Below, in pieces: positions 54,833-56,906 of a DNA stretch of 64,000 nucleotides. Source of the DNA: a bacterium. Lineage in GTDB: Bacteria > Myxococcota > UBA727 > JAUIJE01. Within the stretch, counting starts at the first letter, position 1. Every line of letters starts with the position of its first letter. The position numbers were made by a program, and so were the translations under genes. The stretch is from contig JAUIJE010000001.1 in NCBI GenBank assembly GCA_030431455.1, forward strand, positions 806,001-870,000. The letters run 5' to 3'. The notes beneath the pieces were generated by a model, which made no database searches, was not told where the DNA came from, and was given only the letters and a program-made list of their open reading frames with translations.

Positions 54833-55372
54833 CTACAGGCCTTCTGCGAGGTCTAGGATCTTCTGGCACGAACGCCAGTTGCGCGCGGTGGCGGCCACGC
54901 CGAGGGCTTTGTCGAGTCCCTTCACCATCGTGCTTTTCCCGATGCCGCCGGGACTCCAAAGGTACAGGGCGTGTTTGGCCAGGGTCGTTTGTTCGTCGAC
55001 GCGGGGGAGCGCGTCGACGGCTTTTTGGGCCGCCGCGGTCGGGGCCTTCTCCAAAAAGTACACATGCACCGCCTTGGGGTCGGCCGCCCCCTCGGCGCGG
55101 TACGGGCACGCGTCGAGCACCTTGCGGTAGGTGCCCAACGCCATCACCATCATCTGCGGGACCCAGCGGAAGTTGTTGCCGAACTCGTCGACCAGCGCCT
55201 GCCGGTAGCGCCCCGCCGACTGACCGGTCTCGACCACGAGGTTGCCGCTTTGGATGTAGGTGGCGGCTTGGGTCGCCCCCACCGCCTCGGCCATGCCGCG
55301 CAGGTCCGCCATCTGGATGCGGTGGTGGCCGCCGACGTTGATGCCGCGAAGAAGCACGATCAACTTGGCCAT
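54833..55372 (-). CDS. DUF1697 family protein
   Basis: A 179-residue protein of the widespread DUF1697 family, whose biochemical role is not known. KLIVLLRGINVGGHHRIQM, then GATQAATYIQSGNLV and the late NWRSCQKILDLA are family motifs, and the length is normal. It sits 31 bp after the selenoprotein gene on the same strand and may be co-transcribed with it. Confidence 0.9.
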   Translation of the reverse strand: MAKLIVLLRGINVGGHHRIQMADLRGMAEAVGATQAATYIQSGNLVVETGQSAGRYRQALVDEFGNNFRWVPQMMVMALGTYRKVLDACPYRAEGAADPKAVHVYFLEKAPTAAAQKAVDALPRVDEQTTLAKHALYLWSPGGIGKSTMVKGLDKALGVAATARNWRSCQKILDLAEGL

Positions 55373-55403: not shown

Positions 55404-55748
55404 TCAGCGCAGGGCGTCGAAGCCGCCGGGGGGAAAGCCGACGAACAGCGCCTGGCCCTGGCGCAGGGTGGGAGCGCGGAGATTGCCGGTGGTGCCGAGC
55501 ATGTGGGAGAGCAGTTCTTCGTCGTCGGGCGCGGCCTTTTTCATCTCGAAGTGGAGCACGTTTTTGCCCTTGGCCACGTATATGTCCCGGGCCGCGCGTG
55601 CCAATGACAATGCATCGGCCCGCTGCAGTTTGCGGCTGGCCGGGACCTGCTCGACGATCTCGTATTGGTTTTGCGCAAGAAACTCCTGCGCTCGTTTGCA
55701 GCCCGTTCAACCTGAGCGGTGGTAGTACCAGTCGATTTTCTTCGCCAC
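55404..55748 (-). CDS. ArsC-family selenoprotein with in-frame TGA (UxxC)
   Basis: A 114-residue thioredoxin-fold protein of the ArsC/Spx type. It starts at GTG 55748 behind GAGGAGG, begins MAKKIDWYYHRSG, then has TGA at 55709-55707 followed by TGCKRAQEFLAQ. If the TGA is read as selenocysteine (residue 14) the motif is UTGC, with Sec in place of the first redox Cys. The frame then stays open to a normal TGA at 55404 and reads a coherent protein (VAKGKNVLHFEMKK, NLRAPTLRQGQALFVGF). A SECIS-type hairpin follows the TGA. Conventional calling yields only the downstream fragment. An ArsC-family (seleno)protein group is known, so the call is strong. Likely a redox enzyme; substrate unknown. Confidence 0.9.
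55673..55691 (-). promoter_or_regulatory. Bacterial SECIS element in the ArsC-like selenoprotein mRNA
   Basis: Fifteen bases after the TGA, GCGCAGGA and TCTTGCGC pair as an eight-pair stem (one G-U) with loop GTT. The loop begins with G, and its distance from the TGA (23 bases) falls in the range accepted for bacterial SECIS hairpins that bind SelB. This is what allows a ribosome to insert selenocysteine. Confidence 0.75.
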
Positions 55749-55802
55749 GTCGTCCTCCTCGTCACACCGGGGACGGCTCGTCCCGGTCACACATTGAACG
55801 TT

Positions 55803-56906
55803 CTACACATTGAACTTGAAGTGCATGACGTCGCCGTCGCGCACCACGTACTCCTTGCCCTCGAGCCGCAGCTTGCCCGCCTCGCGGGCCTTGGCCTCGC
55901 CGCCCAGAGACACGAAGTCCTCCCACCAAATCACCTCGGCCTTGATGAACCCACGCTCGAAGTCGGAGTGAATCACCCCCGCGGCCTGGGGCGCCTTGGC
56001 CCCGGCGGGGATCGTCCAAGCGCGGACCTCTTTTTTGCCCGCGGTGAGATAAGTCTGCAGACCCAATAGGGCATAGCCAGCGCGAATCAGGCGGTCGAGC
56101 CCGGACTCCTCCAGGCCGAGGCTCTCCAAGAACTCCTTTTTCTCCTCCTCGTCGAGCTCGGCGATCTCGGCCTCGATCTTGGCGCAGATCGGGATCACTT
56201 GGTCATCGCGTTCGGCCGCGATCTTGTGCAGCTCGGCGAGGTGCGGGTTGGTCGCGGGGTCGAAGCCGTCCTCGTCGACGTTGCCCACAAACAGCGTGGG
56301 CTTCACGGTGATGAGGTGCAGGTCGCGCATGATGACGCGGCTGTCGTCGTCGTCCCCGATGTCGAAGCTGCGCGCGGGGTGGCCCTTTTGCAGGTGGTCG
56401 AGGAGCCGCTCGGTCAGGGCCACGGCCTTTTTCTCCATCGGGTCCTGGCCGCGGGCCATTTTTTTGGCGCGTTCGTGACGCTTCTCGACCGTCTCGAGGT
56501 CCTTGAAGATGAGCTCGGTCTCGATGGTCTCCACGTCGCGCCGCGGGTTCACGTCGCCGTCGACGTGGGTCACGTTGTCGTCGGTGAAGCAGCGCACCAC
56601 GTGGCAAATCGCGTCCACATCACGGATGTGGGAGAGGAACTTGTTGCCCAGCCCTTCACCCTGCGAGGCGCCGCGCACCAGGCCGGCGATGTCGACGAAC
56701 CGAATGGAAGCGGGCACCACTTTTTCGGGGTCGACCACGTCGGCGAGGGCTTTGATGCGCGTGTCCGGCACGGACACGATGCCGACGTTCGGCTCGATGG
56801 TGCAGAACGGGTAGTTGGCCGACTCGGCCACCGCGTTCGACAAGCAGTTGAACAGGGTGCTCTTGCCCACGTTGGGCAGGCCGACGATTCCACACGAAAA
56901 ACCCAT
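55803..56906 (-). CDS. ychF: Redox-regulated ATPase YchF
   Basis: A 367-residue Obg-family P-loop protein that hydrolyses ATP rather than GTP. G1 is GLPNVGKST, G3 is DIAGLVRGASQGEGLGN, and the position of the usual NKxD is NVDE, consistent with the ATP preference known for YchF. The C-terminal TGS domain runs from about 280 (LQTYLTAGKKEVRAWTI) to the conserved end VVRDGDVMHFKFNV. It has roles in oxidative-stress and ribosome-related regulation in other bacteria. Confidence 0.96.
   Translation of the reverse strand: MGFSCGIVGLPNVGKSTLFNCLSNAVAESANYPFCTIEPNVGIVSVPDTRIKALADVVDPEKVVPASIRFVDIAGLVRGASQGEGLGNKFLSHIRDVDAICHVVRCFTDDNVTHVDGDVNPRRDVETIETELIFKDLETVEKRHERAKKMARGQDPMEKKAVALTERLLDHLQKGHPARSFDIGDDDDSRVIMRDLHLITVKPTLFVGNVDEDGFDPATNPHLAELHKIAAERDDQVIPICAKIEAEIAELDEEEKKEFLESLGLEESGLDRLIRAGYALLGLQTYLTAGKKEVRAWTIPAGAKAPQAAGVIHSDFERGFIKAEVIWWEDFVSLGGEAKAREAGKLRLEGKEYVVRDGDVMHFKFNV

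Follow-up and report, generated by a model that had tools for sequence, protein, structure and literature searches.

A new member of a known ArsC-related selenoprotein family, encoded across an in-frame TGA

Does a TGA at codon 14 of a short minus-strand frame end a protein, betray a dead gene or a misread base, or specify selenocysteine (Sec)? The question was raised by the first-pass annotation of a window of 64,000 nucleotides (the whole stretch of DNA that was analysed), in which a selenoprotein was proposed to lie hidden behind such a codon. Here we present evidence that the gene is genuine and well supported, an ordinary addition to a selenoprotein family that is already known. From comparisons of the sequences we infer that the TGA is almost certainly read as selenocysteine.

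A frame interrupted once

On the minus strand, the frame that opens with GTG 55748 runs to a TGA stop at 55406-55404 and is interrupted just once, by a TGA at 55709-55707 (codon 14). Reading through this codon yields MAKKIDWYYHRSG-U-TGCKRAQEFLAQ..., a product of 114 residues. In the UTGC motif the TGA codon is followed by T-G-C and thus opens a CxxC-type pair, whose first residue is Sec or Cys in the family NF041106. The read-through frame has no stop for 27 codons 5′ of the TGA. GTG 55748 is the best start despite the frame being open further 5′, with a ribosome-binding site, AGGAGG, that ends 5 nt ahead of it (Table 1). Re-reading the sequence bore out the frame, the GTG start, the TGA at codon 14, the UTGC motif and the clean run to 55406-55404 as first annotated, together with the ribosome-binding site that had been called strong. 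The annotated 114-residue ArsC-like protein stands as well by its match to NF041106, with the small correction that the gene comprises 114 residues plus a stop.

It had also been claimed that most automatic annotation would keep only a downstream fragment or miss the gene. A plain list of open reading frames does give downstream fragments only at this locus, for example 55404-55610; the claim is nevertheless overstated, since annotation based on NF041106 would name the read-through protein. Reading the sequence itself can bring to light a selenoprotein that is truncated by simple ORF callers.

The gene lies between ychF and a gene for a DUF1697 protein. Inspection by eye of the gene context of ten homologous loci brought out no shared neighbour, and these two genes therefore carry no functional inference. 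Elsewhere, a scan of the whole window returned four further frames with a TGA and a hairpin, which were rejected for their implausible, mostly low-complexity translations.

Table 1. Features of the locus and of the selD gene in the same genome
Feature	Coordinates	Strand	Basis or remark
Selenoprotein gene, NF041106 ArsC-related	55404..55748	-	114 codons + TGA stop; 1.2e-35, 122 bits, cut-off 85
Ribosome-binding site AGGAGG ahead of GTG start	55754..55759	-	Direct reading of the sequence
In-frame TGA, predicted selenocysteine 14, UTGC motif, Cys17 partner	55707..55709	-	26/27 close members have TGA, one has TGC
SECIS-like hairpin, GUU apical loop on an 8-bp stem	55673..55691	-	Folding, covariation, synonymous recoding
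ychF, redox-regulated ATPase/GTPase, upstream neighbour	55803..56906	-	TIGR00092 8.6e-149
DUF1697 protein, downstream neighbour	54833..55372	-	PF08002 2.1e-33
selD in-frame TGA region	L016 2300-2440, G000 contig C12	-	GGG-U-AAK

Selenocysteine machinery of the genome

The genome that was searched (7.7 Mb, 28 contigs, 97% complete) contains SelA (8.9e-128), SelB (279 bits, above the cut-off), SelD (1.3e-110) and one tRNA-Sec (69.9 bits, over the Rfam threshold), and ARAGORN calls the same locus a tRNA-SeC with a TCA anticodon. All four genes that the first-pass annotation had named as a check, selA, selB, selC and selD, are present. The genome holds the full set expected of a bacterium that makes selenoproteins, namely SelA, SelB, SelD and tRNA-Sec. 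On contig C12, selD, selA and selB are adjacent and selC lies about 31 kb off.

The selD gene of this genome has an in-frame TGA of its own at the active-site position, in the context GGG-U-AAK, which we take to be the site known to be occupied by either Sec or Cys in SelD proteins. This TGA serves as an internal positive control for the reading of Sec in the genome. With selD also containing an in-frame TGA, the genome therefore encodes at least two selenoproteins.

Conservation of the TGA and of the adjacent hairpin

A scan of the genome collection identified 23 relatives, all of which (23/23) have TGA at the aligned codon, and the addition of members from the phylum brought the close family to 27 including the window gene. 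TGA occupies the same codon in 25 of the 26 others, and the remaining one (L018, genome G191) has TGC, as expected from the prediction that homologues should carry U or C at this site; the homologues are kin to one another, and counts of TGA and of hairpins do not represent independent events. The TGA-bearing records are labelled Planctomycetes, Acidobacteria, Gammaproteobacteria, Deltaproteobacteria/Myxococcales and Eisenbacteria. A search inside the taxonomic family returned the window genome alone, no other member of that family being in the collection. Homology spans the TGA, with a mean identity of 83% over the 12 residues upstream and 43% over the 19 downstream. This continuity, the retained TGA and the folding excess described below put the observation beyond chance.

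The sole Cys form comes from a genome of 100% completeness in which SelA gave no match and no SelB passed the cut-off, and the TGA-bearing genomes G187, G190 and G028 have both SelA and SelB. All phylum genomes with a TGA-bearing match are in the SelA list, an agreement that is weak on its own because SelA is common in the phylum (152 of 195 genomes). The switch between Sec and Cys, tracking the presence or absence of SelA and SelB in the phylum, constitutes a tidy natural test with one Cys case.

The hairpin annotated past the TGA is real. The first helix, GCGCAGGA-GUU-UCUUGCGC, has its first apical loop nucleotide 24 nt past the TGA. Published criteria for bacterial SECIS elements (PMC13188914) specify a loop of 3-9 nt with G among its first two nucleotides, a stem of 4-16 bp, a distance of 16-37 nt from the UGA and a minimum free energy of at most -7.5 kcal/mol; the window hairpin falls within every one of these limits, with its 3-nt loop GUU, its 8-bp stem, a UGA-to-loop spacing of 23 nt and -12.0 kcal/mol. 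Most of the homologues' hairpins fall into two registers, with two-sided pair changes in 4/8 and 5/8 pairs. In each register group the covariation score was equalled in 0 of 500 shuffles, which are uncorrected for relatedness, and slid registers gave lower covariation than the true register in both groups. In 29/29 TGA-bearing loci the stretch just past the TGA folds more strongly than its synonymous recodings, z averaging -1.6 at the best offset; the window gene alone reaches a synonymous-shuffle z of only -1.57. The same recoding revealed no hairpin excess in three Cys homologues (z -0.13, 0.14 and -0.41). An Rfam scan of the gene matched no named RNA family.

Three TGA-bearing loci (L066, L067 and L068) lack the common GUU hairpin in the first 45 nt past the TGA and may use another, slightly more distal one. 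A weaker second zone of excess folding against synonymous recoding, with a dip near +130 nt, lies about 126-144 nt past the TGA across the 29 TGA-bearing loci (mean z about -1.1).

These observations bear on three other readings of the codon. A single base change turns TGC or TGT into TGA, and the gene could thus be a decaying pseudogene, dead since its Cys codon mutated. However the same TGA stands in the 25 other loci, from several phyla and with intact frames, and this conservation across phyla already refutes decay; the frame 3′ of the TGA is moreover clean and conserved, and the genome has the Sec machinery. We consider a pseudogene extremely improbable. Nor do we give any appreciable chance to a sequencing or assembly error that converted TGC or TGT to TGA. 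Single-base errors occur, which makes such an error conceivable, but TGA at this codon in 25 other assemblies effectively excludes the misread base that had been listed as a possible refutation, and the adjacent hairpin is found in the TGA-bearing forms and is absent from the three Cys forms tested.

The TGA might instead be a true stop, followed by a restart at TTG 55610 that yields a 68-aa protein, and 55404-55610 is indeed among the frames that the ORF finder lists. However the conserved KKIDWYYHR strand and the first thioredoxin-fold helix fall before TTG 55610, and ahead of the TGA the first and second codon positions vary less (0.16 and 0.11) than the third (0.42). A restart is therefore very unlikely.

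Two further sets of relatives were encountered. A second ArsC/Spx-like TGA group in the same phylum (L026 1477-1806 and L030 1468-1803, both minus strand) has the pattern YYGKPG-U-xGC-KAREFLA and a strong hairpin like that of the window gene; it scores under every NCBIfam cut-off, so that current annotation may overlook it or give it a wrong name. Divergent relatives with an FFGR strand at the start, under the NF041106 cut-off, have TGA in one case (L022 1471-1806, minus strand) and TGC in another (L021 1483-1818, plus strand).

The protein and its relation to known families

Across 33 aligned proteins, with TGA read as C, the residues C14, C17, P93 and G104 never vary. The AlphaFold2 model has high confidence (mean pLDDT 92.4, pTM 0.84); among solved structures it lies closest to Spx and ArsC-related proteins, with E no better than 2e-3. 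Likeness to Spx/ArsC is supported by a sequence profile that includes three Spx-like rows and hence leans to Spx.

Computation shows directly the reading frame, its family, the conservation of the UGA, the hairpin and a full Sec machinery. We are highly confident in the explanation that best accounts for them, in which the gene product would be a small ArsC/Spx-related thioredoxin-fold selenoprotein. SelB with Sec-tRNA(Sec) would bind the hairpin just 3′ of the UGA, selenocysteine would be put in at position 14, and Sec14 and Cys17 would act as a selenenylsulfide-type redox pair in the reduction of a disulfide or an oxidised substrate. The product is most likely a Sec-Cys (UTGC) thioredoxin-fold oxidoreductase, a reductase or oxidoreductase activity being predicted, and arsenate is a conceivable substrate. 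We advance more tentatively, with the balance of probability somewhat against it, the proposal that these proteins make up a distinct Sec redox module, with a middle part that departs from the ArsC/Spx fold (a beta hairpin replacing the ArsC insert) and a substrate that is not arsenate but one not yet recognised.

The read-through protein matches NF041106, 'ArsC family (seleno)protein' (NCBIfam), over residues 5-106 with 122.3 bits. It scores 17.0 bits against PF03960 (Pfam ArsC), under the cut-off of 24, is likewise under the cut-off of TIGR01617 (Spx/MgsR), and TIGR00014, with PF03960 the score criterion for the ArsC arsenate reductase family, is absent among its NCBIfam matches. It is therefore a member of a family curated as selenoprotein-or-Cys and, by those cut-offs, not a canonical ArsC. 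With the Spx/MgsR regulators and ArsC it shares a thioredoxin-like fold, an equivalently placed CxxC, a conserved proline and profile matches to Spx structures; it differs from them in a model-to-structure TM of only about 0.5 and in a middle part made of two adjacent strands.

In the 2026 catalogue (PMC13188914) NF041106 is entered as 'Arsenate reductase-like protein' with UxxC, a high-confidence prediction, and a 2008 Global Ocean Sampling study is cited for the family. The window gene shares with this entry a nearly whole-length match above the cut-off, UxxC and about 114 aa, with no substantive difference. The 2008 survey reported 'Arsenate reductase 2' (cd03032, UxxC) with 42 selenoproteins (PMC2398784), marine metagenome members that, going by the catalogue's citation, would belong to exactly the same subfamily as the window gene. 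The first-pass annotation was right that ArsC-family (seleno)proteins are known. With the family in the literature since the 2008 ocean survey and in the 2026 catalogue, the finding is therefore correct and not new in kind, and it adds to a biology already catalogued one more member, well supported and with a SECIS hairpin that covaries.
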